DNA from: Nostoc linckia FACHB-104
GTDB taxonomy: Bacteria; Cyanobacteriota; Cyanobacteriia; Cyanobacteriales; Nostocaceae
Direction: 5' to 3'
DNA: 35,377 nt
NCBI RefSeq assembly: GCF_014696615.1
Contig: NZ_JACJQJ010000083.1
Coordinates: forward strand, 1-35,377
Position numbers and translations under genes: made by a program. This document shows positions 8,081 to 34,242 of this stretch, piece after piece. Below the pieces are notes generated by a model that was given only the letters and a program-made list of their open reading frames with translations, did no database searches and was not told where the DNA came from. Position 1 is the first letter of the stretch, and each line of letters opens with the position of its first letter.

Positions 8081-8092
8081 TACCGCAAGGCG

Positions 8093-8117
8093 GAATTCAA
8101 AATTCAAAATTCAAAAT
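8093..8117. repeat. ATTCAAAA short tandem repeat
   Basis: Three consecutive 8-base units of the ATTCAAAA type follow the small gene ending at 8080. This is a typical cyanobacterial short tandem repeat and has no coding value. Confidence 0.6.
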
Positions 8118-8245
8118 GAATACAGCGTAAGCGTTGCGTGAGTTTAGAATGGTCTGCTTCTTTACGCCGAGGTGTACTAGGGATTGGGAATTAGGGACAA
8201 GGAGAATAAATTTATTTTGACTTTTGACTCTTGTATAAATCCACT

Positions 8246-8653: not shown

Positions 8654-8765
8654 AATCTTTGACAATTCAAAATTTCAAAACTGACACCAATTTTCTCAAA
8701 TTCAGCAACATATTCAAACTTATAAACATAGATTCAGTCTAATTCTCGCAATTACCAATTACCCA

Positions 8766-9377: not shown

Positions 9378-9567
9378 AGTACGGCGAGGGGATTTACCAA
9401 ATTTTTAGCTGAAGGGTTAGTTACAATACTTCCCCGTTTTACGAGATTCCTGTTTGATTTTTCTCAGTCTATGCATCTCTACATTTTTTCTTTCCTGTTC
9501 CCTCTGTTTACAAGTCATTTCATAAATGACTGCACATATCTTTAAAGGAGCAAATTGTCAAGATAAA

Positions 9568-9876
9568 TCATAAGATCCATTCTGAAGAACGTTCACCCAA
9601 ATCAAGGGGGATGCTCACAGCTTTTCCCAGACGGGGGCGATCGCGTGTTTGAGTGATAAATGTTTGGACTTGAGTCGTTCCACCTAAAGCATTAAGATAA
9701 TTGGCAATGCTATCAAGATGGGCTTGATATTCCTCTTCGCTTAAGGGAAAAGAAGCTTGCTCAACATACTTCCACATGACTTGCAAAAAAATTTTCCCCT
9801 GGGATCGCCGCAGCTGCACATCATAAGAGCGTCCCCACTTTTCCAGCAACAGTTGACGTAATTGCAGTCCTGTCAT
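9568..9876 (-). CDS. DUF3067 family protein
   Basis: A 102-residue soluble protein matching the cyanobacterial and plastid family DUF3067, recognised by its N-terminus MTGLQLRQLLLEKWGRSYDV and the following QLRR and MWKYVEQ segments. The molecular function of the family is not established from anything seen here. It is divergent from petC, with 229 bp between the starts, so the two may share a regulatory region; this makes a role around thylakoid electron-transport complexes plausible, though only by context. I chose the ATG at 9876 because the family sequence begins there; a TTG four codons upstream (9888) is also in frame. Confidence 0.85.
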   Translation of the reverse strand: MTGLQLRQLLLEKWGRSYDVQLRRSQGKIFLQVMWKYVEQASFPLSEEEYQAHLDSIANYLNALGGTTQVQTFITQTRDRPRLGKAVSIPLDLGERSSEWIL

Positions 9877-10105
9877 AGGTTGTCTCAATTAGATTTTACA
9901 TTTAGTTATGATGTTAAGTTCCGTAACTCAAGTATGATAAGGATATAAAGAAATGTAATGCTAACAGAAAAGATGCTAGATATATCTTGGAACAAAGAAG
10001 TATGGCATTTTTGTGGGCGTTAGCATTTCGACTTAGATAAGAGTTGCTCAACTACTAGTACTCTTATCAAAATGCTTAACAAAATACACAAAGAGCGCGT
10101 AGATT

Positions 10106-10645
10106 ATGGCTCAATTTTCTGAATCAGCAGACGTGCCCGATATGGGGCGTCGTCAATTCATGAATCTGCTCACTTTTGGAACCGTCACTGGAGTGGCTCT
10201 GGGTGCATTGTATCCCGTTGTCAATTATTTTATTCCACCTGCTGCAGGTGGCGCTGGTGGCGGTGCAACGGCAAAAGATGAGCTGGGCAACGATGTTAGC
10301 GTCAGCAAGTTTCTAGCAAGCCATAATGTAGGCGATCGCTCCCTCGTTCAGGGACTCAAGGGCGACCCAACTTATCTTGTAGTAGAAAGCAAAGAGGCGA
10401 TTGGCGATTACGGCATTAATGCCATCTGCACCCACCTGGGTTGTGTTGTGCCCTGGAACGTGGCTGAGAACAAGTTTAAATGTCCTTGTCATGGTTCCCA
10501 ATACGATGCAACGGGTAAGGTTGTTCGTGGCCCCGCGCCGCTTTCTTTGGCTTTGGCGCATACCAAAGTAGAAGACGACAAAGTCGTAGTTACTCCTTGG
10601 ACTGAAACGGACTTCCGTACCGGCGAAGAACCTTGGTGGGCTTAA
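10106..10645 (+). CDS. petC: Cytochrome b6f Rieske iron-sulfur protein PetC
   Basis: The 179-residue Rieske subunit of cytochrome b6f, which passes electrons from plastoquinol to cytochrome f in the thylakoid lumen. It has a Tat-type N-terminal anchor (GRRQFMNLL then a hydrophobic helix, about 14-45), a glycine-rich hinge ([11 protein letters not shown], about 44-54), and the two cluster-binding boxes CTHLGC (108-113) and CPCHGS (126-131). Cys108, His110, Cys126 and His129 bind the [2Fe-2S] cluster; Cys113 and Cys128 form the conserved disulfide. Length and motifs are complete. The pairing with petA 125 bp downstream marks this as the main PetC copy of the genome; cyanobacteria often have extra copies elsewhere. 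Confidence 0.98.
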
Positions 10646-10651
10646 AAATTT

Positions 10652-10739
10652 TAGTCAAAAGTCAATAGTCAAAAGTCCACAATGTAAACCATTGAATCTT
10701 GACTCTTGACTGTTGACTGTTGACTGTTGACCAATGACT
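10652..10739. repeat. Inverted heptamer repeats between petC and petA
   Basis: AGTCAAA-type heptamers (10652-10678) are followed by TTGACTG-type heptamers (10698-10739). The second set is the reverse complement of the first apart from about one base in seven, so the petC-petA intercistronic RNA could form a long imperfect hairpin with a loop of about 20 bases. It ends just before the petA ribosome-binding region. Confidence 0.7.
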
Positions 10740-10770
10740 AATTCACGAGAGAATCGTTGCCCTTATAGAG

Positions 10771-11772
10771 ATGAGAAATGCTTCGATAACAGCGAGGTTC
10801 ACTCGCAGTACTAGAGCAATCGTCAAAACATTGCTCATAGCGATCGCCACGGTGACATTCTACTTCACCAGCGATTTAGCTCTGCCACAATCGGCTGCTG
10901 CCTACCCTTTTTGGGCACAGCAAACCTATCCAGAAACCCCCCGCGAACCAACAGGGCGGATTGTTTGCGCCAACTGTCACTTAGCTGCAAAGCCGACAGA
11001 AGTGGAAGTTCCGCAATCAGTGCTACCTGACACCGTATTTAAAGCTGTGGTGAAAATCCCCTACGATACTAGCGTGCAGCAAGTAGGTGCTGATGGCTCT
11101 AAAGTCGGTTTGAATGTTGGCGCTGTATTGATGCTACCCGAAGGCTTCAAAATTGCTCCTGAAGACCGCATTTCTGAAGAACTCAAAGAAGAAGTCGGCG
11201 ATACTTACTTCCAAACTTACAGCGAAGATAAGGAAAACGTCGTCATCGTTGGCCCTCTCCCTGGTGAACAGTATCAGGAAATCGTCTTCCCAGTTCTGTC
11301 TCCCAACCCTGCAACTGATAAAAACATCCACTTTGGTAAATATTCAGTTCACGTAGGTGGTAACAGGGGACGCGGACAAGTTTACCCAACTGGTGAAAAG
11401 AGCAACAACTCTGTTTACAATGCTTCTGCTGCTGGTACAATCACCAAGATTGCCAAAGAAGAAGATGGAGACGGCAACGTCAAATATGTAGTAAGCATTA
11501 AAACCGACGCTGGTGAAGTTGTCTCTGAGACGATTCCTTTAGGCCCCGAACTCATTGTTTCTGAAGGGCAAACTGTAAAAGCTGGTGATGCTTTAACCAA
11601 TAATCCCAACGTTGGTGGATTTGGTCAAAAAGATGCAGAAATCGTATTGCAAGACGCTAGTCGCGTCAAATGGTTGATTGCATTCATCGCGCTTGTGATG
11701 CTAGCTCAAGTCATGCTGGTGCTGAAGAAGAAGCAGGTTGAGAAAGTCCAAGCCGCAGAAATGAATTTCTAA
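10771..11772 (+). CDS. petA: Cytochrome f, PetA
   Basis: The 333-residue c-type cytochrome f of the b6f complex, which hands electrons to plastocyanin or cytochrome c6. It has a long signal peptide (residues 1-44) ending SAAA before the mature N-terminus YPFWAQQ; Tyr45 is the unusual axial heme ligand through its amino group. The heme site is CANCH (66-70). A lumenal beta-domain follows, then one C-terminal membrane helix ([18 protein letters not shown]) and a short basic stromal tail. It lies downstream of petC in the usual cyanobacterial petCA order and is closed by a terminator at 11798-11823. The ATG at 10771 gives a signal peptide of normal size. Confidence 0.98.
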
Positions 11773-20801: not shown

Positions 20802-20980
20802 AGTAGTTAATTGTGTTCTTCAGCTCTAGATGGGCAGTAAAATGTCAAAGCTTTCCCATTATCTAGCATCAATAGTATCTAATTGAAGTCAAGATGGCAT
20901 ATTATCTGTTGAATCTTAGGTTTGGGTCAATAGGAGGGCAAGGGGCAGGGGGCAGGGAGCAGGGGGAAAGGTGAGGTTCA

Positions 20981-21274
20981 GAACTCGGAGTGTTGAGTAA
21001 AAAGGTGGAATTATCGCCTTCCGAACTGGGAGTGTCGAGCAAAAAGGTGGAATTATCGCCTTCCGAACTGGGAGTGTCGAGCAAAAAGGTGAAATTATCA
21101 CTTTCCGAACTTGGAGTGTCGAGCAAAAAGGTGGAATTATCACCTTCCGAACTCGGAGTGTCGAGTAAAAAGGTGGAATTATCGCCTTCCGAACTCGGAG
21201 TGTCGAGTAAAAAGGTCGAATTATCGCCTTCCGAACTCGAAGTGTCGAGTAAAAAGGTGGAATTATCGCCTTCA
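20981..21274. repeat. Seven tandem copies of a 42-bp unit
   Basis: Units begin at 20981, 21023, 21065, 21107, 21149, 21191 and 21233, each exactly 42 bp, starting GAACT and ending near CGCCTTCC. Copies differ at a few positions (for example GTGGAATT, GTGAAATT, GTCGAATT). A degenerate eighth start (CAACTCAAATT) follows. With no unique spacers it is a minisatellite, not a CRISPR array. It reads as a 14-residue repeat in several frames. Confidence 0.92.
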
Positions 21275-21338
21275 CAACTCAAATTATCAAGTTCTATCTC
21301 CACCCATCTGTATTTGTTTAGAGACAATTTATGTAGGG

Positions 21339-21714: not shown

Positions 21715-23097
21715 TTATATTGCCTTCGAGAAATGCTTTTCTTTGATTCTCATGTGATTATCAAAGATGACGGCAATATTTCTTACCAGCAATCTGCCAA
21801 TGTCTGTAACTAATATGTAGTTTTTTGATAAGCTTACCAGTCCATCGGCTTCTAGAGGTTTTAACATCTCTAGTTCATGGGCAAAGTATTCGTCAAAACA
21901 GATGTGATATTTATCTGCGATGTCTTGCTTTTGCAATTGAAAATGCGACATAATACCCATGATAACATCGCGTCTAATAATGTCATCTTGAGTTAATTTG
22001 ATGCCTTTACTCAACGGCAATGTACCTGTAGAAATTGCCTGATAATATTCTTTTAGTTGTTTATGGTTTTGGAAATACGCATCTTCTAACATACTAATAG
22101 ATGTCGCCCCAAAACCAAATAATTCTGTTTCGGCGTGGGTAGTGTAGCCTTGAAAATTACGCCGGAGAGTGCCATTGCGTTGCGCGATCGCTAATTCATC
22201 GTTAGACTTAGCAAAATGATCCATACCAATGAATAGATACTCATTATTTGTGAGTTCTTCAATGGTCATTTTGAGAATATCTAGCTTTTCCTGTGCCTTG
22301 GGTAAAGCTGCTTCAGGAATATTTTTCTGTGCAGGTTTAATCCAGGGAATATAAGCAAAGTTAAAAACCACAATTCTGTCTGGGTCTAACTTTATTGTCT
22401 TTTTCACTGTTTCCCGAAAACTCTGCCGAGTTTGATAGGGAAGACCATAAATCAGGTCTACATTTACGCTTTCAAATTCTGCTTCTCTGATCCAACTCAT
22501 GACATCAAAGAGCATTTCTTCCGGCTGGATACGATTAATCGCCACTTGCACTTCATGATTAAAATCTTGAATGCCAAAGCTAATGCGATTAAATCCTAAT
22601 TCCCTGAGAAATAAAATGTAATCTTTATCTACATAACGGGGGTTGATTTCAATGGAGATTTCTGCTTTTGGGTCAATAGTGAAATGTTGAGTAATGTGTT
22701 TCCACACAAACTCTACTTGTTCGCGGTCTAAATAATTAGGTGTACCACCACCCCAATGAATTTGCAGAACTTGGCGATCGGAATCAATTAAAGCGGCTGT
22801 TTGTTTAATATCTTGAGCTAAATGTTCTAAGTAAGGTTTGGCAATATTCTTATTGTTAGAAATTACCGTATTACAGCCGCAAAAATAGCACGCAGTCTGA
22901 CAAAAAGGGATGTGGAAATATAAAGAAAGGGGAGTTTTACGTTGATTCGAGGCTGCGATCGCATTTTGTAAATCGGTGGTGGTAAATGCTTCGCTTAACT
23001 CAGTAGCAGGTGGATAACTGGTGTATCTAGGTATTGGAGCATCATACTTTTGGATCATCTCCAAATCAAACTTGACACCAGGTAAGAGAAAAACCAT
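21715..23097 (-). CDS. hemN: Oxygen-independent coproporphyrinogen III oxidase HemN
   Basis: A 460-residue radical-SAM enzyme that decarboxylates coproporphyrinogen III to protoporphyrinogen IX without oxygen. The cluster motif is CQTACYFCGC, with Cys66, Cys70 and Cys73 as [4Fe-4S] ligands and Cys75 following, the CxxxCxxCxC pattern of true HemN, not HemW. Also typical are the N-terminal PIPRYTSYPPATE (21-33), WGGGTPNYL (about 109-117), and the C-terminal DGLVSLSKNYILVTDIGRLL. The ATG at 23097 is set by a strong GGAGG (23103-23107); a TTG at 23100 is less likely. It lies 122 bp downstream of the heme oxygenase gene on the same strand, with heptamer repeats between; it is probably co-transcribed and used at low oxygen. 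Confidence 0.95.
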   Translation of the reverse strand: MVFLLPGVKFDLEMIQKYDAPIPRYTSYPPATELSEAFTTTDLQNAIAASNQRKTPLSLYFHIPFCQTACYFCGCNTVISNNKNIAKPYLEHLAQDIKQTAALIDSDRQVLQIHWGGGTPNYLDREQVEFVWKHITQHFTIDPKAEISIEINPRYVDKDYILFLRELGFNRISFGIQDFNHEVQVAINRIQPEEMLFDVMSWIREAEFESVNVDLIYGLPYQTRQSFRETVKKTIKLDPDRIVVFNFAYIPWIKPAQKNIPEAALPKAQEKLDILKMTIEELTNNEYLFIGMDHFAKSNDELAIAQRNGTLRRNFQGYTTHAETELFGFGATSISMLEDAYFQNHKQLKEYYQAISTGTLPLSKGIKLTQDDIIRRDVIMGIMSHFQLQKQDIADKYHICFDEYFAHELEMLKPLEADGLVSLSKNYILVTDIGRLLVRNIAVIFDNHMRIKEKHFSKAI

Positions 23098-23108
23098 CAA
23101 AACCTCCG

Positions 23109-23219
23109 GGGTGGGGACTGGGGATTAGGGATTGGGGACTGGGGATTAGGGACTGGGGAGATGAGGGAGAATTATTTTGAATCTTGACCTTTCACCCTTC
23201 ACCTTTCACCCTTCACCCT
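23109..23219. repeat. Heptamer repeats between heme oxygenase and hemN
   Basis: GGGGACT/GGGGATT units (about 23109-23160) are followed by CCTTTCAC/CCTTCAC units (about 23188-23221). The last unit overlaps the TGA stop codon of the heme oxygenase gene. Confidence 0.75.
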
Positions 23220-23897
23220 TCAGTTAGTTAGGCTGTTAAATAAGGCTTGACCGATGGCTTGAATTAAATTCGCCTCTAAGCCTTGTACTATTTGCATATT
23301 CAAATGAAAGGCATTGTTAGCTTCTGCGACAATTTGGTCGGCGGTTACATCATCGATGGGTAATGCGTCCAAAGCATCACGGTATTTGTGCTTAAATGCC
23401 GTTTTATCGGTAATTTGGTCAAAATTATAAAAATTTGTACCTTCGTAGCCAGATAATTGCAAAGTTGATTGAGCAATTTTTTGCAACATCTGACCACCAG
23501 AAAGGTCGCCCATGTAGCGTGTATAGGCGTGTCCTAACAATAGGATAGGTTCAGTAGCAGATAATTCCCGAATTCTGGCGACAAATGTTTGAGTAGCAGT
23601 TGCAGGGGCAATTTGCTTTCGCCATTGCTTTCCATAGTAAAACATCATGTCCTTTTCTAGAGCAGCTTGCCGATTTAGCTCTGGAAAGTAAACAGCTGCG
23701 ATCGCCTGATTGTTAACATTAGTTACAATTGCCGCTTCTAGTTCGCTATAGACAAAATACAAATTACTCAAAAACTTCGCAAAGCAGTCTCTATCTACAA
23801 CTCCTTTGAGAAAACATTTCATAAAGCCTACATTTTCTGCTGCTGTATGAGCTTGTTCTGTTCCAGCGCGTAGTTTGACGGCGAGATTGCTACTCAT
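23220..23897 (-). CDS. ho2: Heme oxygenase (probably the low-oxygen Ho2 type)
   Basis: A 225-residue biliverdin-forming heme oxygenase; it opens heme to biliverdin, iron and CO with ferredoxin electrons, feeding phycobilin synthesis. The proximal heme ligand is His17 in RAGTEQAHTAAE, and the distal helix has GDLSGGQ (130-136). Its length matches cyanobacterial HO. Its position beside hemN and acsF, the arrangement known from the Synechocystis chlAII-ho2-hemN cluster, is why I call it the Ho2 type; the sequence by itself does not exclude Ho1. The start at 23897 is supported by AAGGAA a few bases upstream. The upstream gap is a 569-bp divergent region shared with acsF. Confidence 0.93.
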   Translation of the reverse strand: MSSNLAVKLRAGTEQAHTAAENVGFMKCFLKGVVDRDCFAKFLSNLYFVYSELEAAIVTNVNNQAIAAVYFPELNRQAALEKDMMFYYGKQWRKQIAPATATQTFVARIRELSATEPILLLGHAYTRYMGDLSGGQMLQKIAQSTLQLSGYEGTNFYNFDQITDKTAFKHKYRDALDALPIDDVTADQIVAEANNAFHLNMQIVQGLEANLIQAIGQALFNSLTN

Positions 23898-24466
23898 TTT
23901 GTTTCCTTAATTTCAAGCGCCAGATTTCTGCACAGCCAACGACTCAGGATGTCTGCTAGAGGGACTGGGGATTGGGGATTGGGGATTGGGGATTGGGGAG
24001 ATGTAGACGCGTAGCGGCTTCCCGCAGGGTGGGGGATGAGGAAGCAGGGGTGCAGAGGATGCAGAGGGGGTAGAGGATGCAATAGAGACATTTCCAATCC
24101 CCATTAGCAATTACCGATTACCCATTACCAAACACCAAATGACAAACACCAAATGCCAAATTTAGGGTTTAGGAGGGATTAGCATCAGTATTACGGCAAA
24201 TATACTTTCAATGCTCATCCCTGCTCTGTTTACCTCTCCCAAAAATATTTAACTATTTATATTTGTATAACTATTAAAGTATTAATATTTCTTTATTTTT
24301 GTCTGTCAGGGAAGGCACATTTTGAAATGGGCATGGGGCATTGGGTGTTTGTGATTTCCCCTCATCCCCAATCCCTAATCCCCAACCCCTTCGCACAACT
24401 TAACTGTTCTCAACAATATTTTATGCTTATATAGCTATTGAAAGATAGAGCGAGAGAAGGATTCTC
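23898..24466. promoter_or_regulatory. Divergent regulatory region between heme oxygenase and acsF
   Basis: This 569-bp gap must hold the promoters of both ho-hemN and acsF. Much of it is repeats: GGGGATT units (23961-24000), a REP-like element (24004-24030), ACCAAATG-like units (about 24120-24165) and CCCCAATCC units (24360-24390). Unique AT-rich DNA remains at about 24171-24330 and 24400-24466. The acsF start has AGAAGGA before it. No binding site for the low-oxygen activator ChlR can be identified by eye. Confidence 0.5.
24004..24030. repeat. REP-like element GCGTAGCGGCTTCCCGCAGG
   Basis: GC-rich element embedded in heptamer repeats, of the same family as 25679-25703 and the reverse complement of 3205-3230. 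No coding role. Confidence 0.55.
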
Positions 24467-25543
24467 ATGGTGAAGTCTGTTGAAACTCCGGAGCCTCAGT
24501 TATTAAAGCCAGGTGTAAAAGCGCCTGTGAAAGAAACATTATTAACACCCCGGTTTTATACTACTGACTTCGAGGCGATCGCAAAGTTAGATATTTCAGC
24601 CCATGAGACTGAGTTGTTGGCAATTGTAGAGGAACTGCGGGCTGACTATAATCGCCATCATTTTGTGCGTGATGAAGAATTTAAGCAGAGTTGGGAGCAT
24701 ATTGACGGAGAAACACGCCGTTCTTTTATTGACTTTTTGGAACGTTCGTGTACTTCCGAGTTTTCCGGGTTTCTTTTATTTAAGGAAATATCACGCCGTC
24801 TCAAAGACAGAAACCCGATTTTGGCGGATGCTTTTAATTTTATGGCCAGGGATGAAGCGCGTCATGCGGGATTTTTAAATAAGTCAATGGCAGATTTTAA
24901 CCTTTCCCTAGACTTGAGCTACTTAACTAAAAGCCGTACTTACACCTTTTTCCCGCCAGAGTGGATTATTTACACAGTCTACCTATCGGAGAAAATTGGC
25001 TACTGGCGCTATATATTGATGTATCGCCATTTGCAGAAAAACCCTGATTATCAGTTCTATCCCCTGTTCAGGAAATTTGAGAGTTGGTGTCAAGATGAAA
25101 ACCGACATGGAGATTTCTTTAAAGCATTACTGCGATCGCAACCACAATTATGGGATAACTGGAGAGCAAGGTTGTGGGTGCGTTTCTTTTTGCTGACGGT
25201 GTTTGTTACCCACACAATTACGGTATTTGAACGCGCCAGTTTTTACGAATCTATTGGGATTCATCCACGCAAGTATAATAACCAAGTGATCGCAGAGACA
25301 AATAACACCGCTTCTAGAGCCTTTCCCATCATTTTAGATACCAATCACCCGGCGTTTTTCTGGCGCTTAGAGCAGTGTTACCAGAATAATCAGAAACTCA
25401 CAGCGATTAACAACAGCGATCGCCCTCAGTTTCTCAAGTTCTGGCAAAAATTACCAGTCATTACCGCTATTATCTGGCATATGTTGCGGATTTATCTCGT
25501 CAAACCCATAGATGCGGAGTTAACACGGGAGACTGTGCGATAG
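24467..25543 (+). CDS. acsF: Mg-protoporphyrin IX monomethyl ester oxidative cyclase AcsF
   Basis: The 358-residue diiron enzyme that forms ring E of chlorophyll (ChlA/AcsF). Ferritin-like diiron ligands are visible in two ExxH motifs, DEARHAGF (Glu130, His133) and DENRHGDF (Glu211, His214), plus the upstream Glu in SEFSGF (about 98). The typical N-terminal TPRFYTTDFEAIAKLD starts near residue 27. Cyanobacteria often have two forms, one for normal and one for low oxygen; the divergent ho-hemN pair next door suggests the low-oxygen form (ChlAII), an inference from context. The ATG at 24467 has AGAAGGA at a suitable spacing. No co-transcribed gene follows; a palindrome-rich gap separates it from the convergent DUF5682 gene. 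Confidence 0.95.
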   Translation: MVKSVETPEPQLLKPGVKAPVKETLLTPRFYTTDFEAIAKLDISAHETELLAIVEELRADYNRHHFVRDEEFKQSWEHIDGETRRSFIDFLERSCTSEFSGFLLFKEISRRLKDRNPILADAFNFMARDEARHAGFLNKSMADFNLSLDLSYLTKSRTYTFFPPEWIIYTVYLSEKIGYWRYILMYRHLQKNPDYQFYPLFRKFESWCQDENRHGDFFKALLRSQPQLWDNWRARLWVRFFLLTVFVTHTITVFERASFYESIGIHPRKYNNQVIAETNNTASRAFPIILDTNHPAFFWRLEQCYQNNQKLTAINNSDRPQFLKFWQKLPVITAIIWHMLRIYLVKPIDAELTRETVR

Positions 25544-25816: not shown

Positions 25817-28639
25817 TTAATTAAGCAGTCCAGCAAAATAATTTAATGTTGCTGGATAATTCTTAATTAATTCTTGGGTTTTGAGTTCCGTTTCAGATAA
25901 ACTTTCTTGATGCGCTTGATGTGTTTCTAAATTGTCTTGCCAAGTTAAATTTTCAATACCTAGTAGTTTAGCTAGCGCATTGGTTGTGGCTGGAGAATTA
26001 AACAGAAATTCTCTAATTGTTAACTCATTTTCGCTGAGTGTTGGTGCAGCCTCGACTTGTTTCACCTGTTCTTTAATTTCAGGTTGCTGTTTCCTCCAGG
26101 CGGGAACCCAGCTATTAAACCCAACTAAATTTTTCGGGAAATTACTTGAGGCTTCTTTAATTAATCCTTGCAAAATTTGAGCGTGGGGTCGCAGTTTAAG
26201 AATGAGGCTAGGTAGCCAAGGTAATAAAATTTTATCGGGAACTGTGGCGAATAATTTACTTAGGAGTTCGACAACAAATTTACTAATTCTGGGTGCAAAG
26301 GTTAGAGATAAGATAAAACCATTTAAATATTCGGGGAAAGATTTAATTAACATTTCGTTGTTAATCACATCATTGAAGAATTCCCGAATTTCTTCTAGTT
26401 TTCTTAATGTTAGTAACCATTCGGTTGTCCACAATAAACCAATTTTGGCGGGGTCGTCTAAACCTTGGCTGGATTGTTTGACACCGATTAATAATTGACT
26501 GCGGTTACAACCTAAAGATAACGCCAAACTTTCTAGGGTGAAAATAAAATTCAACATCCCAGCAATTTGTTCGGGTGTGGTTCCCCTATCTGCGAAGGCT
26601 TGGGGTAGTAAGGTGGCGTAATGTCCGTAGCCTGTGGTAACAAAACGCTCTATCCATTCCGGTAAGCCTGTGGGTGTGGCGCGGTAATAATGGACTAGGC
26701 GACGGACGCGTTCAAATACTTGCGGTGCGTCGCTGACACCTGTTTCTTGTTTGAGGAGAGAAATTGCGTGTTCTCCGAGTTCTTGGGTTAAGCGGAGGCT
26801 GCGCGCGTATAAAATGCTATCTTCTGTGGATTTGAGAACCTCGCTGGTTTTGGCTTGGGGAGAGAAAGCTGTTTGTTTAAGGCGCTGTTCTAAAACTTGC
26901 TCGATGCTTACACCTTCATAACCGAGCATAATAATATGACGCTGGTATTTACCGATGCGGATTTCCCAAGATTCTTGAATCGGCTTTGAACCAAGACTGC
27001 GATCGCCCATAATGGGTTTAACAATCGTATCGCCTGATAAATAATACAATCGCCACAGCACATCAGAACAGGGTAAAAGTTCTGGCTGCTGTTTGAAATC
27101 CATTAAGGCGCGTTGGTTGGTTTGTGCAAGTAGGTTGACTCCCAGTGGTTTTAGCCTGTCGTACACATCTTGCGCTAGGGGAGGTAAAGAAGCGTAACCA
27201 ACTGTACCAATGCGATCGCCTCCGAGTAAAATTTGGCAAAGTTGGTAAATATTGCGTTTTTTGGGAGTGCGGTCTTTTTCTAAACAGGTAATAGCTGCAT
27301 CTTGGAAATCGTAAGGCGTGGGGTGCATTCGGTTTCGCATCCCAGCTAGCAACATTGAGGTTTGATAGATGGCGATAGAGTCGGCGGTACTCGCTAAATA
27401 GGCATTTTTTCGCGCTAATCCGACAATATCCGCGCACCATTGCAATAATTGTTCGGTATCGGCTGCGGCTAGTTCTGGGGGACGGGTTAAAAAAGCGGTG
27501 AGGTTGGAATTTGTCGCTGTGGTTGCGGTTGGACTTGGTTTGGGTTTAGTTGCTTTCTCTTCTTTATTGAGGGAAAATCCCTTTAAACCTGTCACCTTGA
27601 GATTCTTTTTCCAAGTTGCTTCTGCTAGCGATACTGTACCCGCTGGGTGATGAAATTGGTATTCAATAGCCGCAAAACTAGAAGGAATTAAACCATATAA
27701 CCATTTGGTTTGGGTGCGTTCTGGGATTTCCCAGAGATTATTATTAGTAACGCTATATTCTTCTACATCGCTAGCAGAGTGCGCTGCACCACATATATAG
27801 ATAGCTTCTGATGGTGCAATATTATGCGCCGCCATGTGTTTTTTCATGGAAGTCCACATATAGCGTTCGCGCTGGCGGTCGATTTCGATATCTTTGTCAC
27901 GGGTTCCTAAACGGCGCATCAAGCTACCGATGAGGAACATGACTTGGCGGTAGGTGTCGTAGTCTGCGCCGATAATTGCTGTTTCTACATATTCATCCCA
28001 CCATTCCGAAAAGTGGCGAGTATTGGAGTTGCGGAGTAAAAAGCTTAAAAATTGCTCAAAAGTGGGGATGAGGCTACCGACTTCTACACCAACCGCCGAA
28101 CCATGCATTTTGGCTTCATCGCTGGCGGGTTCTTCGGATTCTTCAGCAAGTTTAGTATCTGGGGGTTCCCATTGAAAGACAAAATCCACCGCCCTATCAA
28201 CAAATACTAGCTGAGTTTCGGGATTTTGCAGAGCAAAAGCGATCGCTTGATATTCTGCGGAAGCTTCGGTAATAGGTGCAACCACACTCAACGGCATGAT
28301 TTTGGGCGAAAAATGCTCAGATTCCGCGGCGAAGGCTTGTAAAGCGACGGGTAATTTACAATCGCGGAGATTTTCAACGGTGTTTTGTAAGTCTTCGCAT
28401 AGTTCCAAGTAGATAACTTTTGGTGGTTTCTCGCGTAAACGTCGCACCATCTGCAAAGCGGAGGATGGGGAGTGATGACATACGGGGAAAATTTCTAAAG
28501 GTTCGCTGCTGGCTTTTTCTACATCTTTGATTAAAGCCGTTAGCATTTCGCTTAAAGGTTGAGCATCGTTAGCGAATTTTTCCGCCGCATTAAGGAGTTG
28601 TTCTTGGAGTGCGTTGAATGCAGTTGGGAGGTTAACCAT
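25817..28639 (-). CDS. DUF5682 (YehM-like) protein of a MoxR/VWA gene cluster
   Basis: A 940-residue soluble protein of the DUF5682 family, whose E. coli relative is YehM. The N-terminal third has the family signature VCHHSPSSAL (His55-His56-Ser57-Pro58), YLELCEDL (Glu79), FVDRAVDF (Asp148, Arg149), then IDRQRERYMW and YICGAAHSASD (His287). This spacing resembles the EreA/ChaN/TraB-type hydrolase fold, suggesting a metal-dependent hydrolase, which is my inference. The rest is helical. The last 75 residues hold two similar copies of a short helical motif (ENELTIREFLFNSPAT and ETELKTQELIKNYPAT). It is the most downstream gene of the minus-strand cluster, separated from the MoxR gene by a plus-strand Uma2 gene. 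Larger than YehM. Confidence 0.85.
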   Translation of the reverse strand: MVNLPTAFNALQEQLLNAAEKFANDAQPLSEMLTALIKDVEKASSEPLEIFPVCHHSPSSALQMVRRLREKPPKVIYLELCEDLQNTVENLRDCKLPVALQAFAAESEHFSPKIMPLSVVAPITEASAEYQAIAFALQNPETQLVFVDRAVDFVFQWEPPDTKLAEESEEPASDEAKMHGSAVGVEVGSLIPTFEQFLSFLLRNSNTRHFSEWWDEYVETAIIGADYDTYRQVMFLIGSLMRRLGTRDKDIEIDRQRERYMWTSMKKHMAAHNIAPSEAIYICGAAHSASDVEEYSVTNNNLWEIPERTQTKWLYGLIPSSFAAIEYQFHHPAGTVSLAEATWKKNLKVTGLKGFSLNKEEKATKPKPSPTATTATNSNLTAFLTRPPELAAADTEQLLQWCADIVGLARKNAYLASTADSIAIYQTSMLLAGMRNRMHPTPYDFQDAAITCLEKDRTPKKRNIYQLCQILLGGDRIGTVGYASLPPLAQDVYDRLKPLGVNLLAQTNQRALMDFKQQPELLPCSDVLWRLYYLSGDTIVKPIMGDRSLGSKPIQESWEIRIGKYQRHIIMLGYEGVSIEQVLEQRLKQTAFSPQAKTSEVLKSTEDSILYARSLRLTQELGEHAISLLKQETGVSDAPQVFERVRRLVHYYRATPTGLPEWIERFVTTGYGHYATLLPQAFADRGTTPEQIAGMLNFIFTLESLALSLGCNRSQLLIGVKQSSQGLDDPAKIGLLWTTEWLLTLRKLEEIREFFNDVINNEMLIKSFPEYLNGFILSLTFAPRISKFVVELLSKLFATVPDKILLPWLPSLILKLRPHAQILQGLIKEASSNFPKNLVGFNSWVPAWRKQQPEIKEQVKQVEAAPTLSENELTIREFLFNSPATTNALAKLLGIENLTWQDNLETHQAHQESLSETELKTQELIKNYPATLNYFAGLLN

Positions 28640-28748
28640 AGTTTATTAATTCGTCATTTGTGCGTAGGTGTAGCCTGTTGTAGACATCGCCTGTTTATTT
28701 TGGATTTCTCATAATATAAATACAACCCATGTCAGAATCGGAGGCTTT

Positions 28749-29291
28749 ATGTCACTGACAGTTGAAGATTTAGAGAAAATGCAGCAACAGTACCCCGACT
28801 ACCGCATGGAATTAGTTAAAGGTAATGTTATTGTCATGAGTCCATCAGGATACGAATCAGATGAAGTTGCGGCTGAGATGGTATCCCAGTTACGTAACTG
28901 GGTGAAACCACGTAAGCTAGGACGAATAACAGCTTCTAGTGCTGGTTTTAGATTGCCAAACTCAGATTTACGCGCACCAGATGCTTCGTTTGTGTTAGCT
29001 GAACGTTTGCGTCGCAGTCCCAAAACTTTTGCTCAATTGGCTCCTGATTTAATTGTTGAAGTCAAGTCCCCCAGCGATAATTTAGAGGATATCAGAGCGA
29101 AGATTCAAGAATTTTTGAGTTTGGGAACTAAAGTCGGAATTTTGCTGAATCCTGATGAACAAATTGTGGAAGTTTACAATGTGGGAAAAGAAGTAATAGT
29201 ACTGCACAATGGAGATGTATTAACTGTTCCCGAATTGCTTCCAGGTTGGGAAGTACCAGTTTCCGATTTATGGCCTGTGGAATTTGATTGA
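28749..29291 (+). CDS. Uma2 family endonuclease (DUF820)
   Basis: A 180-residue protein of the Uma2 family, which has a restriction-endonuclease-like PD-(D/E)xK fold. The pieces are visible: YRMELVKGNV with Glu21, LRAPDASFV with Asp78, and LIVEVKSPSD with Glu104 and Lys106. The catalytic residues are intact. The family is greatly expanded in cyanobacteria and its biological role is unclear; mobile-element or defence links have been proposed. It is read from a GGAGG (28740-28744) four bases before the ATG. It lies alone on the plus strand inside the otherwise minus-strand MoxR/VWA cluster, and a long imperfect inverted repeat (29316-29390) follows its stop, so it may have been inserted there. 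Confidence 0.92.
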   Translation: MSLTVEDLEKMQQQYPDYRMELVKGNVIVMSPSGYESDEVAAEMVSQLRNWVKPRKLGRITASSAGFRLPNSDLRAPDASFVLAERLRRSPKTFAQLAPDLIVEVKSPSDNLEDIRAKIQEFLSLGTKVGILLNPDEQIVEVYNVGKEVIVLHNGDVLTVPELLPGWEVPVSDLWPVEFD

Positions 29292-29315
29292 GGTACTCGT
29301 ATCACTTTTACGTTC

Positions 29316-29390
29316 CTCTCTGCGCCTCTGTGTCTCTGCGTGAGATAAAAGAGAAATAAACCGCAGAGGACGCAGAGAACGCAGAGAAAG
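29316..29390. repeat. CTCTGCG/CGCAGAG imperfect inverted repeat between convergent genes
   Basis: Left arm (29318-29340) is built of CTCTGCG/CTCTGTG units, the right arm (29362-29386) of CGCAGAG units, complementary with a few mismatches around a 21-base loop. It lies between the Uma2 stop and the MoxR stop and may act as a bidirectional terminator. Such blocks are common in cyanobacterial genomes. Confidence 0.65.
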
Positions 29391-29398
29391 AAGAGTTT

Positions 29399-30553
29399 TT
29401 AAAATAACCCCATCGCTTGTTTTCCACCTTCGAGGAAGGCTTCCCATTCACCTTTTTGTTCTTGACTGCGCTTCTCCACAACGGCGTGCCAAAATTGATT
29501 CATCACGGAAATATCTTCTGGTTGACGACGTACCAAAGTACCTACCAATGACTTGGCTAACGCACCCGCTTCTAAATTAGTCGCGCCAAAATATCGACTG
29601 TGTAAAATCGCATCTTCTAACACACCAATTTGTTCGGCTGTAGACAGCGCCGATTCTAAACGCTGGTCATCGGAACTAGCGGCGGCGCTGGTTTCGCGCA
29701 AGTCGGCAAAGGTCTGCAATAATACATCCAATAGTGTTGGTGGTACATCCACCTCAAAGCCGTGACGGTTCATTAATTCCTTGGTGCGGAAGAGGATAAT
29801 TTCTTTTTCTTGCTTCTTATTCGTCACCACCGGCATATGTACGAAATTAAACCGCCGTTTCAATGCGGAAGAAAGTTCATTCACACCCCTGTCGCGGCTG
29901 TTGGCTGTGGCGATGACATTAAATCCTGGTTGTGCGAAAGCTACGTTATCTGTCTTTAATTCGGGAATCGAAATATACTTTTCACTCAGTATAGATATCA
30001 GTGCATCTTGGACATCGGAAGTACAGCGCGTCAACTCCTCAAACCTACCCATTGCACCGCTATGCATAGCTGTCATAATTGGTGAGGGAATCAAAGAATC
30101 GCGGGATTGACCAGCCGCAATCACCATCGCTACGTTCCAAGAATATTTAATTTGGTCTTCTGTCGTTCCCGCAGTTCCTTGAACTACATAGGTGGAATTA
30201 CCAGAAATTGCGGCTGCGAGTAATTCTGCTAACCAGCTTTTACCTGTACCAGGGTCGCCAATTAAGAGTAATCCACGGTCAGAAGCTAAAGTGACAATAG
30301 CACGTTCTGCGATCGCACTATCGCCGTACCATTTCTGTTCTATTTGCCGATCTAACTTTTGCGATGGCGTACTTCCTAATACAAAGGTGCGTACCATTTG
30401 CGGCGACAGTCGCCAAGAAAATGGTTTTGTACCTTTATCAATTGAGGCTAAATATTCCAATTCTTCTGCATATTTCATTTCCGCCGGTTGGCGCAGCATG
30501 ACAGTATTATCTTTAGTCTCGCTATTTGTATTATTACTTTTAGCCTTTGCCAT
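29399..30553 (-). CDS. MoxR-family AAA+ ATPase (YehL-like)
   Basis: A 384-residue AAA+ ATPase of the MoxR group, closest in setting to YehL. Walker A is GDPGTGKS (99-106). The Walker B region, AMGRFEELTRCTSDVQDALI (about 167-186), has FEE where most MoxR proteins have DE, the pattern typical of this subgroup. Sensor 1 is in NVIATANSRDRG (Asn218) and the arginine-finger region is SALKRRFNFVHM (Arg233-Arg234). MoxR ATPases act as chaperones that remodel or load cofactors into protein complexes, usually with a VWA partner. That partner is the next gene upstream. The ATG at 30553 has AGGAG (30560-30564) before it. Function of this particular system is unknown. Confidence 0.93.
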   Translation of the reverse strand: MAKAKSNNTNSETKDNTVMLRQPAEMKYAEELEYLASIDKGTKPFSWRLSPQMVRTFVLGSTPSQKLDRQIEQKWYGDSAIAERAIVTLASDRGLLLIGDPGTGKSWLAELLAAAISGNSTYVVQGTAGTTEDQIKYSWNVAMVIAAGQSRDSLIPSPIMTAMHSGAMGRFEELTRCTSDVQDALISILSEKYISIPELKTDNVAFAQPGFNVIATANSRDRGVNELSSALKRRFNFVHMPVVTNKKQEKEIILFRTKELMNRHGFEVDVPPTLLDVLLQTFADLRETSAAASSDDQRLESALSTAEQIGVLEDAILHSRYFGATNLEAGALAKSLVGTLVRRQPEDISVMNQFWHAVVEKRSQEQKGEWEAFLEGGKQAMGLF

Positions 30554-30620
30554 TTTTATCTCCTAATAATTAATGTAAAATCTCTCTTAAACTCTCTTAC
30601 CTTCGCGTTCTTCGCATCTT

Positions 30621-30658
30621 CGCGGTTCGTTTTTATAAATCTTTTTTAACGAACCGCG
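30621..30658. repeat. CGCGGTTCGTT inverted repeat between VWA and MoxR genes
   Basis: Perfect 11-bp arms CGCGGTTCGTT (30621-30631) and AACGAACCGCG (30648-30658) with a 16-base T-rich loop, flanked by more GAAGCG-rich repeat DNA to 30690. It lies in the 181-bp gap between the VWA gene and the MoxR gene, so it could attenuate or process the shared transcript. Confidence 0.6.
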
Positions 30659-30734
30659 TTCGCGAAGCGTCTCGCAGAGAAGGCGCGAAGGTCACAAAGG
30701 AAGAAATTGCTGAAGGGAATAGGGTGAAGTATAT

Positions 30735-32162
30735 TCAAGTTATAATCACCTTCTTTAACTCCTGAATTAACTTCTTCGGACTCCCTGTTAAAATCGGCAT
30801 ACCCAATTCCTTCAACTTATCCCTAAACCATTGATTCACACTGAAATATCCCGAACTCGTCACCGCACCAACGGGAATAAAATGCAATCCCGACTCTTTC
30901 AACGATTTAATATAGTCAAATAAAACTTGGTCGCTACCACCTTCATAAAAATCAGAAATTAATACCATCGCCGTATTATTTGGCTCTAAAATCTTTTGTG
31001 CAGCTTCCACTAACGCAGCATAAATATGCGTCCCTCCACCTAATTGAGTTCGCAATAAAACCTCAAAGGGGTCATGTACCCAAGCTGTTAAATCAATGAC
31101 TCGCGTATCAAACGCCAATAAATGCACATCCACATTGGGAAGTCCAGCGAAAATTGACGCGAGGATAGTACATTGCACCATCGCATCCACCATTGAACCT
31201 GATTGATCAACAACTACAATCATGCGAGTTGGTGTTTTCTTCTTGGCTGTATGGTGGTAATACAACCTATCAACAAATAATCTCTGTTCTTGTGGGTTCC
31301 AATTAGTTAAATTCTTCCAAATTGTCCGCTTTAAATCTAAGTTGCGAAATATCCGTTTCGGCGGAACCGAATAATCAATTTTTCCAGCAACAGCTTGCGC
31401 GACTTGTAACCGTAAAACTTGCGCGAGTTCGTCTACATATTCCTGAATTAACCGTTTAGCATTTTTCAGCGCATTTCCTGATAAATTGGCTTTTTCTCGT
31501 AATAGCTGTTCCACCAAAGCCATTGATGGCGTAAGTTGGCTGGCTAACCTGTCATCTTTGAGAACTTCGTGTAAAGCCATGCGGTGAATTAATTCACCTT
31601 CCAACGCTTTCAGGGTGGCGCGGAGTTGTTCTTCGGTAACGGTGAAACCGCCACCAGTACCTAAACCCGCACCCATACCACTACTTTGACTGCTACCTTG
31701 TCCTTGATTTTGCTGTCCGGGGTTTTTCCCAATACCTGGCCCTTGTCCGCGTAAACTTCCTGGGGGACATCCTAAGGCTTTTTCTAAAAATCCCACATCT
31801 TTCAACCATTGCGCGTATTGTTGGGCGGTGACAACTCCGGTTTGGGTGTTGGGGCCGAAAGCATTTAGGAGTAATTTAGAGAAAACTAATCCTCGGCGTA
31901 AGGTAGCGGTTTCGGCTTCCGGTGTTGTGTCGTCTTCGGGAATGATGGGATTATTAAAATCTGCTTCTAATTCTGGATAGCGGTGGAGTAAGTTTTCAAT
32001 ACTAATATTAGGGTCGAGGATTAATTGGGGTAAATTTAACTCACTGACAACTTCCGTCGCCATGTGTTCAAAATTTGCACCCTGTTCGCTAAAGCCAAAC
32101 ATACTCGTTAGTAAGCGCCAGTATACAACTTGACGGCGTTGAGCAATTTGTTCTGTATCCAT
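30735..32162 (-). CDS. VWA domain protein, partner of the MoxR ATPase (YehP-like)
   Basis: A 475-residue protein with a C-terminal von Willebrand factor A domain (about 312-470). The metal-binding MIDAS motif is complete: DQSGS (Asp319, Ser321, Ser323), Thr378 in GGGTHIY, and Asp404 in LISDFYEGG. The N-terminal half is helical, and a low-complexity Gly/Gln linker lies at about 138-172 (for example GQQNQGQGSSQSSG). VWA proteins paired with MoxR ATPases couple ATP-driven remodelling to substrate complexes. The MoxR gene is 181 bp downstream, and the unknown 462-residue gene ends only nine bases upstream, so these are very likely translated from one transcript. E. coli YehP is shorter but of the same type. 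Confidence 0.92.
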   Translation of the reverse strand: MDTEQIAQRRQVVYWRLLTSMFGFSEQGANFEHMATEVVSELNLPQLILDPNISIENLLHRYPELEADFNNPIIPEDDTTPEAETATLRRGLVFSKLLLNAFGPNTQTGVVTAQQYAQWLKDVGFLEKALGCPPGSLRGQGPGIGKNPGQQNQGQGSSQSSGMGAGLGTGGGFTVTEEQLRATLKALEGELIHRMALHEVLKDDRLASQLTPSMALVEQLLREKANLSGNALKNAKRLIQEYVDELAQVLRLQVAQAVAGKIDYSVPPKRIFRNLDLKRTIWKNLTNWNPQEQRLFVDRLYYHHTAKKKTPTRMIVVVDQSGSMVDAMVQCTILASIFAGLPNVDVHLLAFDTRVIDLTAWVHDPFEVLLRTQLGGGTHIYAALVEAAQKILEPNNTAMVLISDFYEGGSDQVLFDYIKSLKESGLHFIPVGAVTSSGYFSVNQWFRDKLKELGMPILTGSPKKLIQELKKVIIT

Positions 32163-32171
32163 GTTTTTTCC

Positions 32172-33560
32172 TCAACTCTTACGCAGTAGTCGGCTAGAAC
32201 GTTCTTGTAAGATTCCCACAACACTATTTTTAATGGAATCTTTTTTCGCAATTACTGGCGCGGCGGTTTGTCCGGTATATGTGGTTTTGTTTTTCACTGC
32301 TACTGCTAAAGGTTGGACTGACCATTTACCCGCATCAAAGCGTAATAAGCCGAATATTTGCTGAGATTTGGCTATTATGTCTAAATTTAGTTCTGATAAA
32401 CTGCTGATACGTTCATTAGCAATGCTGAGTTCACCCGCATCACCCCAACTTAAAACAATATTCTCGTCATTTTTCACAACTTGATAATTACTGAGATATA
32501 TCGGTTCCGCAATTTGGATGGGATGGCGATCGCTCGCGGCGACTGTAGAATAAATCAAGCTATTACCTGTATTCTCAGCAAAAAATTCCGCCGCCCGCTT
32601 CATCAAGTTATAATTTTGACCAAGTTCGCCTTGACCTTGCCACAATAAATCTCCAGTAGGTAGCAAAGGTACATCTTTAATCTGCAATACCCGGTTTTGT
32701 GCAAATGCATCCAATAACACAGCCGCATTCGGAAATAGCAACCAAATTTGCTCATTATTAATTGCATCTACCTTGTAAGCTGACTGGCTAACTCGCACTA
32801 ACTGAGTTTGATTATTCGCATCTAGCAACCCATAAGCTGTAAAGCTAACTAAGTTGGCGTGTTGGCGTAAATCTAAACCTAAAATTTCTAAATTGCCTGA
32901 TATTAACTGCGATTTCGGTAAAATAGCTGGGCGTAAAGTGCCTAACATCGCCTGTGTCCACAAATCAACCCAACGATATTTCGGAATTTCTGCGCTATCA
33001 GCCACGGGAAGATTTCGCATCAATTCATTAAAATAGCCAGTCAGTAAAGCAGCTTGTCTGACTAATAAAGGTTCTGCTTGGATTTGTTCAAGTGTTCCTA
33101 AAAACGGCACCAAAGTTGCGATATCTAAACGCGCATAACCTACCAAAGCAATTTCCATTAACCAGTGACGCACACTTGCTAACAGAACTTTGACGTTATT
33201 TGGTGCTTCGCTGGCTTCATAGTCTAACTCAACCTCAGCAACTTGCAATCGCCCTAGCAAACTCTTGACGTGGGATTGCAATGTATCAAATATCGCTCCT
33301 TGGATTGAAGCGCGGACAGTCGCTATAACTGCAAAATGCTTATCTACAAACTCATTTGTAGTAATTGCCGCAGTAGCTTCAACTAAAGATTGCTGTAAAG
33401 GTGTGCTAGTAAATACACGCCCCAAAGCCTGTAAAGTTTGTAAATGTTGCTCATCTAAATTTGCAAAGCCAGTAATAAAACACTCATCTAAACTCGCAAT
33501 CAACTCGAATATTTCTTGATTGCTTTCGCTGATTTGATGCAATGCGCCGGGGAAAGCCAT
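32172..33560 (-). CDS. Uncharacterised 462-aa protein in the MoxR/VWA cluster
   Basis: A 462-residue soluble protein I cannot assign to a family. The N-terminal third is helical (NQEIFELIASLDECFITGFA, residues 14-33, and long Ala/Leu-rich helices to about 200); the second half looks like alternating strands (about 225-420). There is no signal peptide, membrane helix or obvious catalytic motif. The C-terminus is basic (QERSSRLLRKS). The stop is nine bases before the VWA gene, so the two are translationally linked, and it lies downstream of the SWIM gene. It holds the place between SWIM and VWA genes and is probably a structural or substrate-recognition part of the same machine. E. coli YehQ combines a SWIM finger with a long extra part, which could correspond to this protein. 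Confidence 0.85.
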   Translation of the reverse strand: MAFPGALHQISESNQEIFELIASLDECFITGFANLDEQHLQTLQALGRVFTSTPLQQSLVEATAAITTNEFVDKHFAVIATVRASIQGAIFDTLQSHVKSLLGRLQVAEVELDYEASEAPNNVKVLLASVRHWLMEIALVGYARLDIATLVPFLGTLEQIQAEPLLVRQAALLTGYFNELMRNLPVADSAEIPKYRWVDLWTQAMLGTLRPAILPKSQLISGNLEILGLDLRQHANLVSFTAYGLLDANNQTQLVRVSQSAYKVDAINNEQIWLLFPNAAVLLDAFAQNRVLQIKDVPLLPTGDLLWQGQGELGQNYNLMKRAAEFFAENTGNSLIYSTVAASDRHPIQIAEPIYLSNYQVVKNDENIVLSWGDAGELSIANERISSLSELNLDIIAKSQQIFGLLRFDAGKWSVQPLAVAVKNKTTYTGQTAAPVIAKKDSIKNSVVGILQERSSRLLRKS

Positions 33561-33771
33561 GTGTTGGGGATTGGGGACTGGGGATTGGGGAACTCGGGGC
33601 CCCCTCTGGGGATAAGGGGCAATGGGGATTGGGGATTGGGGACTGGAGATTGGGGACTGTTGACTGTTGACTGTTGACTTTTGACCCTTGACTCTTGACT
33701 CTTGACAAACACCAATTACCTAATGACAAATGACAAATGACAAATGACAAATGACAAATAACAAATGACAA
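33561..33771. repeat. Dense heptamer repeats between the SWIM and 462-aa genes
   Basis: GGGGATT/GGGGACT units (33567-33591 and 33624-33658), TTGACTG/TTGACTC units (33659-33706) and TGACAAA units (33724-33771) fill the whole gap and touch the SWIM stop codon. A GC-rich insert (33592-33621, CCCCTCTGGGG core) breaks up the first block. No gene lies here. Confidence 0.85.
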
Positions 33772-34242
33772 TCACACAAACCAACTCATTTCGGGGAGGG
33801 GAGAGTTGGAGGTTTGTAATTCTAGGTAGCGGAGGTAGTTTAAAAAGCGGCTGAAGACTTCGCTGGCTGGTTCTTTTTTGACTGTACCGTGACGGTTGAT
33901 AATGTCACCCAAGGATGTAATTTGGCTGGGGTCGCCGGGAACTTTAAGATAATTAATTACTTGGTCAATTCCGTAGGCGGCGATCGCTTCTTTCATCACA
34001 GCTTGCAAATGCTTACAGGGATAGCCTCCCAAACCTCCACAAGGACGATTGTTATTTGTACTACAATAAAAATCTAGGGTTCCTGCTTCAAAAAAAGAAA
34101 CGTAAACCCTCTCAATATCAGAACCGCTAGAAACGACTCCTTGCAATCGGTGATTATATAATTCCACAAACGGAACCTGCTTCACATCCCGCTTTGTCGT
34201 AGCATTTTTCTGGCTCGAACCTACAAATGATGAATCAGGCAT
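33772..34242 (-). CDS. SWIM-like zinc-binding protein of the MoxR/VWA cluster
   Basis: A 156-residue protein with a SWIM-like zinc-binding centre: Cys60 in DFYCST, Cys68 in RPCGG, and Cys76/His78 in YPCKHLQ. It differs from the classic CxC...CxH form because the first two cysteines are seven residues apart. SWIM domains bind DNA or proteins. In E. coli the related YehQ is much longer; here the finger is a separate small protein, with the rest perhaps in the 462-residue neighbour. It is the first gene of the minus-strand cluster. The ATG at 34242 has no strong ribosome-binding site. A heptamer repeat touches its stop codon. The zinc ligands are inferred from spacing only. Confidence 0.8.
   Translation of the reverse strand: MPDSSFVGSSQKNATTKRDVKQVPFVELYNHRLQGVVSSGSDIERVYVSFFEAGTLDFYCSTNNNRPCGGLGGYPCKHLQAVMKEAIAAYGIDQVINYLKVPGDPSQITSLGDIINRHGTVKKEPASEVFSRFLNYLRYLELQTSNSPLPEMSWFV

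Follow-up and report, generated by a model that had tools for sequence, protein, structure and literature searches.

Machines that pair a MoxR-type AAA+ ATPase with a von Willebrand factor A (VWA) protein, CoxD/CoxE among them, are among the closest described counterparts of the locus considered here, a run of five genes in a 35,377-nucleotide stretch of contig NZ_JACJQJ010000083.1 of the cyanobacterium Nostoc linckia FACHB-104, which we refer to at its full length as the window. According to the parts of the literature drawn on here and cited by accession, such pairs remodel their targets and help metal insertion (PMC9976466; PMC13036017), with fumarate reductase, Rubisco and nitric oxide reductase as the complexes on which known pairs act (PMC9976466). 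For instance, NorD acts on its target only with its metal ion-dependent adhesion site (MIDAS), and a VWA finger docks in the pore of NorQ (PMC9976466; PMC13036017). The MoxR subfamilies include YehL (PMC3893208), and Kaur et al. (2020) described MoxR-vWA ternary systems in multicellular bacteria, with VMAP or a similar third part, fast evolution and variable effectors, the VMAP systems having a fixed gene order and congruent distances (PMC7159879); the word SWIM does not occur in the main text of that paper.

In Escherichia coli ML35 the yeh locus consists, in order, of a DUF4132 gene, yehI (also DUF4132), yehK, yehL, yehM, yehP and yehQ, the last four encoding MoxR, DUF5682, VWA and SWIM proteins, respectively. 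A yehL-type gene is close to universal in the species, with DNA matches in 5169 of 5426 E. coli genomes (the five matches listed are annotated yehL). In the open literature, outside which most subscription papers lie, we found no paper naming DUF5682 or DUF5691 and none on the function of yehLMPQ, joint mentions of two or more of yehL, yehM, yehP and yehQ being limited to a genome announcement and a strain resource; the literature on TIKI/ChaN and on SWIM/MoxR likewise held nothing on this system. The term "undescribed", used in a preliminary description of the locus made from its sequence, fits the literature searched.

That description had placed five open reading frames (ORFs) on the minus strand, and all five were confirmed at their positions. 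They encode S, a small SWIM-like zinc protein (33772-34242, 156 residues), u462 or U (32172-33560, 462 residues), V, a CoxE-like VWA protein (30735-32162, 475 residues; Pfam VWA_CoxE, E 2.8e-35), M, a MoxR AAA+ ATPase of the YehL type (29399-30553, 384 residues; Pfam AAA_5, E 4e-38), and D, a DUF5682 protein (25817-28639, 940 residues; Pfam PF18934, E 2.2e-26); S and u462 have no Pfam match at E<=1. We propose, at a probability of roughly 0.45, that these genes, hereafter the cassette, specify a single AAA+-driven machine in which MoxR and VWA would remodel or activate a TIKI-like DUF5682 protein, with S and u462 as adaptors.

The supposition that the five genes form one unit is borne out by other genomes. 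When four cassette MoxR proteins were combined into a profile (A2) and run against one genome per species (84,980 species), 481 relatives were returned, of which the best 80 were examined, and in 78 of these loci all five genes occur in identical order and on the same strand; in the two exceptions (L020 and L087) the contig stops short of where the zinc gene would lie. MoxR, DUF5682 and VWA genes are linked in all 80 and accompanied by the zinc protein in 78. As labelled in their records and in the tree described below, the loci belong to 63 Actinomycetota, eight Cyanobacteriota, five Myxococcota, two Planctomycetota, one spirochaete (Spirochaetota) and one proteobacterium. The preliminary description had asked whether the genes occur together elsewhere, and they do so in several phyla. 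Median gaps, approximate because start codons were chosen by script, are -1 base for S-U (78 loci) and -4, 24 and -4 bases for U-V, V-M and M-D (80 loci each), with gaps of 60 bases or less in 66/78, 69/80, 65/80 and 67/80 loci, respectively. Most gaps are wider in cyanobacterial loci than elsewhere, and in the window they measure 211, 9, 181 and 759 bases; the nine-base gap remarked on earlier is real and belongs to the u462/VWA pair.

Distances for protein pairs of the five correlate at 0.885-0.973 (79 sequences). Omega, estimated from seven close cyanobacterial loci, is 0.015-0.036 for M, 0.03-0.08 for V, 0.055-0.108 for D, 0.04-0.13 for S and 0.12-0.16 for U; MoxR has the lowest values and u462, the fastest-evolving of the five, the highest in six of seven comparisons, while for the eighth cyanobacterial locus (L019) S yielded 0.08, the other four genes being saturated. 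Purifying selection acts on the five genes, and they are inherited together. A quick tree was built from V, M and D, without L020 and L087. In it Actinomycetota, Cyanobacteriota and Planctomycetota are each set apart by a single branch, two changes are required for Myxococcota, and long branches occur in several rows. These results are consistent with a cassette of old origin that has seldom moved between phyla in recent times. No flanking-gene cluster recurs in more than eight of the 80 loci (the largest, at eight, encodes a protein that looks kinase-like on visual inspection of its sequence), and five neighbouring genes in the window, tested in the eight cyanobacterial loci, gave a single match, a methyltransferase in L017.

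Three of the proteins are homologous to YehL, YehP and YehM, with identities of 38.4% over 362 residues for MoxR, 30.5% over 334 residues for VWA and 22.6% over 248 residues for DUF5682 (YehM residues 2-203). MoxR in the window carries the motifs GDPGTGKS (Walker A), FEE, TAN and ALKRRF, and the P-loop GKS, EE, TAN and ALKRRF are present in 80/80 relatives, so its ATPase motifs are intact. With Walker A and B, sensor 1, an arginine finger and similarity to YehL, it can be assigned, by identity and motifs, to the YehL subfamily, and it is 72-74% identical to three Actinomycetota cassette copies. Alone of the five it has NCBIfam matches, none of which reaches its curated threshold; the strongest are MadB_ATPase (E 5.3e-12; 45.5 bits where 475 are required) and GvpN (E 2.4e-11). 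A Pfam match to bpMoxR, at 18.1 bits, is under its cut-off of 27. The MIDAS of the VWA protein had been called intact, and it is: the motif comprises DxSGS at 319-323 and D404 (numbering of L012, which has the same length), its D, S, S and final D are invariant across 80/80 relatives, and the T position is occupied by T in 54 of them and by N in the remaining 26. VWA ORFs are 402-537 residues long in 76/80 loci, the others measuring 298, 356, 374 and 628 with starts chosen by script. MoxR, VWA and DUF5682 matched no PDB sequence at the thresholds used across runs (E<=10, 1e-4 and 0.01).

For the DUF5682 family, profile comparison indicates that the N-terminal domain is related to the TraB/TIKI hydrolase superfamily, a relationship that is new here; in the window the TraB/TIKI-like domain, delimited by the hhalign profile match and residue conservation, spans residues 43-302 (27734-28513, minus strand). 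In one hhalign comparison, 62 DUF5682 N-domains matched 22 TraB_PrgY_gumN sequences, all from one phylum, with a probability of 94.75%, an E of 5.6e-8 and a score of 63.6 over 196 columns. Among the controls, 40 column shuffles reached at most 17.2 and a reversed profile 16.0; u462, VWA, MoxR, the zinc protein, the C-terminal part of DUF5682 and EreA scored 15-21 (the EreA set was small, with a frame that looked doubtful, L109, among its six), and the related pair ChaN and TraB scored 47.0 (75.7%). A shallow first test, with three TraB sequences and cassette DUF5682 only, was not significant (probability 1.0%), and the match became significant only after non-cassette DUF5682 and the 22 TraB sequences were added.

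As to residue conservation, H55, H56, E79, E82, E129, D148, R257, E258, M261 and H287 are invariant in 33/33 cassette DUF5682 proteins, in an alignment of the window and 32 of the 80 loci that was not motif-selected. Twelve DUF5682 ORFs with a stop in their script-computed frame were dropped from it; eleven of them have their first stop at residue 918-970, with the tblastn match continuing beyond it, and L076 has a stop at 548. The set used for the TIKI comparison was obtained by keeping 62 of 67 DUF5682 sequences with a pattern that demanded H56, R257, M261 and H287 and nearly demanded H55, E258 and G284, so the invariance of those residues in 62/62 is partly built in; E79, E129 and D148 lie outside the pattern. 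Motifs of the HHSP/HHGP, E, SxE, D, RExxM and GxxH types are common to ten DUF5682 proteins including YehM, and the motif blocks of the cassette proteins are also found in YehM and three other non-cassette proteins. TIKI enzymes have been proposed to use a His-Glu pair for water activation, some being metal-dependent and some not (PMC6254334). Candidates for a 2His/2Glu catalytic set are the invariant H55, H56, E79, E82, E129, E258 and H287 (33/33 cassette proteins). DUF5682 shares with TraB/PrgY/GumN-TIKI proteins the profile match over most of the N-domain and the His/Glu motifs, and differs from them in carrying about 600 further residues and in travelling with MoxR/VWA. As a TraB/TIKI relative it offers a testable enzyme hypothesis with named residues.

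DUF5682 was found in all 34 cassette genomes searched (34 of the 80), and 26 of these hold a further copy that scores above 180 bits with the Pfam model, where copies of the cassette type attain roughly 125 bits. We compared architectures in twenty regions around high-scoring DUF5682 copies and in four named loci. Type I, (yehI)-yehL-yehM-yehP-yehQ, was found in L183-L187 and L092, with no yehI match in L186, and in a variant order in L008. Type II, SWIM/DUF5691-MoxR-DUF5682-VWA, was found in L168-L182 and L009; in two of these loci, L168 and L169, its SWIM gene lies on the other strand, a pattern search detected the SWIM motif in 11 of the 15 regions and in L009, and the DUF5691 label rests on the L009 annotation and profile relatives. 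L011 has MoxR, DUF5682 and VWA genes and no SWIM match. The cassette, S-U-VWA-MoxR-DUF5682, is a third architecture of YehL-type MoxR/VWA/DUF5682 systems, and three genomes (G135, G163 and G164) each hold all three. Like the SWIM-DUF5691-MoxR-DUF5682-VWA operon annotated in Deinococcus taeanensis, the cassette has homologous MoxR, VWA and DUF5682 genes with a SWIM gene adjoining them, but in that operon DUF5691 takes the place of u462 and VWA comes last, not third; operons of this type occur in genomes that also carry the cassette.

The resemblance to the E. coli yeh set that had been pointed out for the window stands in part. MoxR, VWA and DUF5682 have homologues in both, they are linked in both to a zinc protein (of the SWIM type in E. 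coli, SWIM-like only in the cassette), and S and u462 together are about as long (618 residues) as YehQ (667 residues). However, gene order differs, DUF4132 is a partner in E. coli and is not among the cassette's five, the SWIM motif of E. coli is canonical and lies in one large protein, and none of the E. coli proteins compared gave a confident match to the u462 profile. The kinship with yehLMPQ is confined to three of the five genes and does not extend to the set as a whole. An additional type I locus (L203, 659-11057) lies on a 77-kb mobilizable Iodobacter plasmid, adjoining restriction-modification genes, and its YehQ-like gene is split over two overlapping ORFs.

What, then, are S and u462? 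They belong to two protein families absent from Pfam, against which seven zinc proteins gave one isolated match (E 0.25) and 41 u462 relatives (alignment A4, the window and 40 of the 80) gave five with one isolated match each (best E 0.0062, SpoVG). The putative zinc ligands of S (C60, C68, C76 and H78) are invariant in 7/7 aligned proteins. The earlier label of a SWIM-like zinc protein holds for a variant motif, CxT[NS]x4C-x(4-9)-CxH, present in 78/78 relatives, but the canonical CxC-x(n)-CxH was found in 0/78; S aligns weakly with type II SWIM proteins (profile E 0.02). Neither S nor u462 significantly matched whole YehQ, and comparison of the entire S protein with YehQ gave no profile match. 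Residues 105-215 of u462, a segment picked after a first weak match to YehQ, weakly matched the C-terminal helical domain of YehQ with an hhalign score of 26.6; 100 column shuffles did not exceed 17.2, and the highest score among six other profiles was 20.2. The YehQ set retained 19 of 21 sequences, and fifteen regions (L188-L202) were searched for YehQ relatives only. Additionally, a short part of u462 at about residues 400-429 resembles the YehQ sequence that immediately precedes this domain (E 0.014). As a lead only, S and u462 may represent a split and rearranged YehQ. Other identities for u462 were discarded: as a DUF5691 relative it reached 0.1% by hhalign against one annotated DUF5691 protein and showed no similarity to script-made relatives, a rough comparison in that the type II SWIM and DUF5691 script sets overlap (one profile caught both) and some ORFs are fused frames; it has no profile similarity to DUF4132; and its sole solved-structure match, Mediator subunit 22 (E 0.0013-0.008 over profile positions 341-417), was judged to be chance.

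In the machine that we propose, MoxR would form a hexamer on which the VWA protein docks, gripping DUF5682 via its MIDAS, and ATP hydrolysis would remodel DUF5682 by metal loading or active-site exposure, such that a TIKI-like hydrolase of the peptidase or esterase type would be active only when licensed; S and u462 would be adaptor or substrate-recognition parts. Homology, motifs, linkage and constraint are established at the sequence level; complex formation, licensing, hydrolase activity and adaptor roles we infer. Because all three architectures keep MoxR, VWA and DUF5682 and vary in their other partners, DUF5682 would be the client or enzymatic arm. The cassette shares with NorQ/NorD a MoxR and VWA pair with a MIDAS, and its VWA protein matches a CoxE-like Pfam model; it departs from NorQ/NorD and CoxD/CoxE-type machines in that its target would be the linked DUF5682, no redox enzyme being among the five. 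If this were true, MoxR/VWA machines would extend from cofactor insertion to hydrolase control, and the strict five-gene cassette offers a minimal unit for purification. A wider and quite tentative reading is that DUF5682 proteins, YehM included, are TIKI-type hydrolases licensed by their own MoxR/VWA. They would then make up a class of AAA+-gated hydrolases not recognised until now, and among its architectures, at least three in number, the cassette would be the form of large-genome, complex bacteria.

Several observations weigh against the proposed machine. Cassette DUF5682 alone scored 35.0 (25.4%) against TraB, compared with 56.8 (92.4%) for non-cassette DUF5682 alone; the cassette-only match is weak, and it is by way of the wider DUF5682 family that the cassette protein is connected to TIKI. 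DUF5682 reached 0.4% with ChaN, 2.6% with EreA and 7.8% with the first three TraB sequences, no solved structure matched the DUF5682 profile by sequence at E<=10, and the u462-YehQ link has a probability of 30%. Some TIKI proteins are metal-independent or have no catalytic motif (PMC6254334). Finally, co-transcription of D in the window is doubtful because an antisense gene separates it from M. This Uma2-family gene (28749-29291, plus strand; Pfam Uma2, E 2.8e-39) interrupts the run of five minus-strand genes. It is a local insertion outside the machine, since it is present in only five of eight cyanobacterial M-D gaps, not being found in those of L014, L018 and L019. In L012, L015 and L016 the M-D gap also contains other ORFs (220 or 308 residues), and it therefore looks like an insertion hot spot.

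One rather unlikely alternative is that MoxR and VWA mature or repair an unlinked complex, as RavA-ViaA or NorQD do, and that DUF5682 is a non-catalytic scaffold or binding module. The clients served by known MoxR/VWA pairs, fumarate reductase, Rubisco and nitric oxide reductase (PMC9976466), are in its favor, as is the existence of a TIKI-superfamily protein without the catalytic motif (PMC6254334). However, no common neighbour gene points to an unlinked client, and the His/Glu residues invariant in 33/33 cassette proteins fit catalysis or metal binding better than they fit a scaffold.

We similarly regard it as improbable that the cassette is a conflict (immunity) system of multicellular bacteria resembling the MoxR-vWA ternary systems, with DUF5682 as a TIKI-like effector and u462 as the sensor of invaders. 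The two share a MoxR and vWA core, a fixed gene order with, as in VMAP systems, congruent distances, and a host range apparently biased to complex bacteria. Judged from species names, the hosts of the cassette are mostly filamentous or otherwise complex in habit. The zinc gene is present in five of 296 Actinomycetota (one being the centre genome, already known to carry it) with genomes of 6.3-10.5 Mb, whereas 20 listed of the 291 without a match have genomes of 1.3-4.5 Mb, and the host range looks biased to large-genome, complex bacteria. Presence is also patchy, the zinc gene occurring in two of 244 cyanobacteria (one besides the window's own genome) and u462 in four of 120 genomes of the order (three besides its own), and u462 evolves fastest. 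Sub-cut-off matches of MoxR to MadB_ATPase and, in PADLOC, to mad8 (E 6.6e-6), and of VWA to TerY (E 7.9e-4), neither support nor exclude a conflict role.

Other evidence argues against such a system, and the suggestion of one in the preliminary description is not supported. No VMAP partner is among the five, and the window proteins had no above-cut-off Pfam match to a VMAP, iSTAND, FtsH or beta-propeller third component. There is no sign of fast evolution or variable vWA effectors: VWA is strongly constrained (omega 0.03-0.08, with no genome-wide rate baseline; the domain scan covered the window VWA only), its length of 402-537 residues in 76/80 loci leaves little room for variable effector domains, and strong purifying selection sets the cassette apart from the ternary systems. 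Cassette-type MoxR is present at 97-100% identity in 8/8 searched genomes of the window's genus, its own included. In a single control, a neighbouring gene with a Rubrerythrin match, which we take to be AcsF-like, was 89-98% identical in six of the other genomes and 64% in one; this control is less or equally conserved, and cassette MoxR is therefore at least as conserved as that neighbour. The flanks hold no recurrent cluster above eight of 80 loci, and a search of 50,697 phage records with the zinc protein and DUF5682, the only two proteins tried, returned nothing. An antiviral role is conceivable but lacks support, and the cassette would instead serve a cellular function that bacteria with large genomes, mostly filamentous or otherwise complex, have maintained, and would not be a mobile defence cassette. 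Among 72,556 plasmid records u462 occurs in five, one of which, at 11.85 Mb, is in effect a chromosome. A viral contig collection gave no match to MoxR and one to the zinc gene (L165), where an S-U-V run (7962-11439) extends up to the contig end; this 76.6-kb contig, classed as viral, may be a provirus or a mis-filed chromosome.

The idea that the five genes are chance neighbours, to which only the antisense gene between M and D in the window lends anything, was rejected as next to impossible given that the order of all five is kept in 78/80 loci across several phyla.

In the window, promoter and terminator scans did no better than shuffles (18 vs. 17.2 and 7 vs. 9.5, respectively). Heptanucleotide repeat tracts occupy 33564-33771, between the zinc gene and u462, and a 42-base tandem repeat lies at 20977-21280 (7.2 copies, 93% matches). 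The AcsF-like gene is grouped at 21715-25543 with a HemN-like radical SAM gene and a heme oxygenase gene, an arrangement that, we presume, recalls the cyanobacterial low-oxygen chlA2-ho2-hemN cluster. In the three other genomes (G121, G124 and G126) in which the closest copy of the acsF relative shares a contig with the cassette, the two are at least tens of kb apart.

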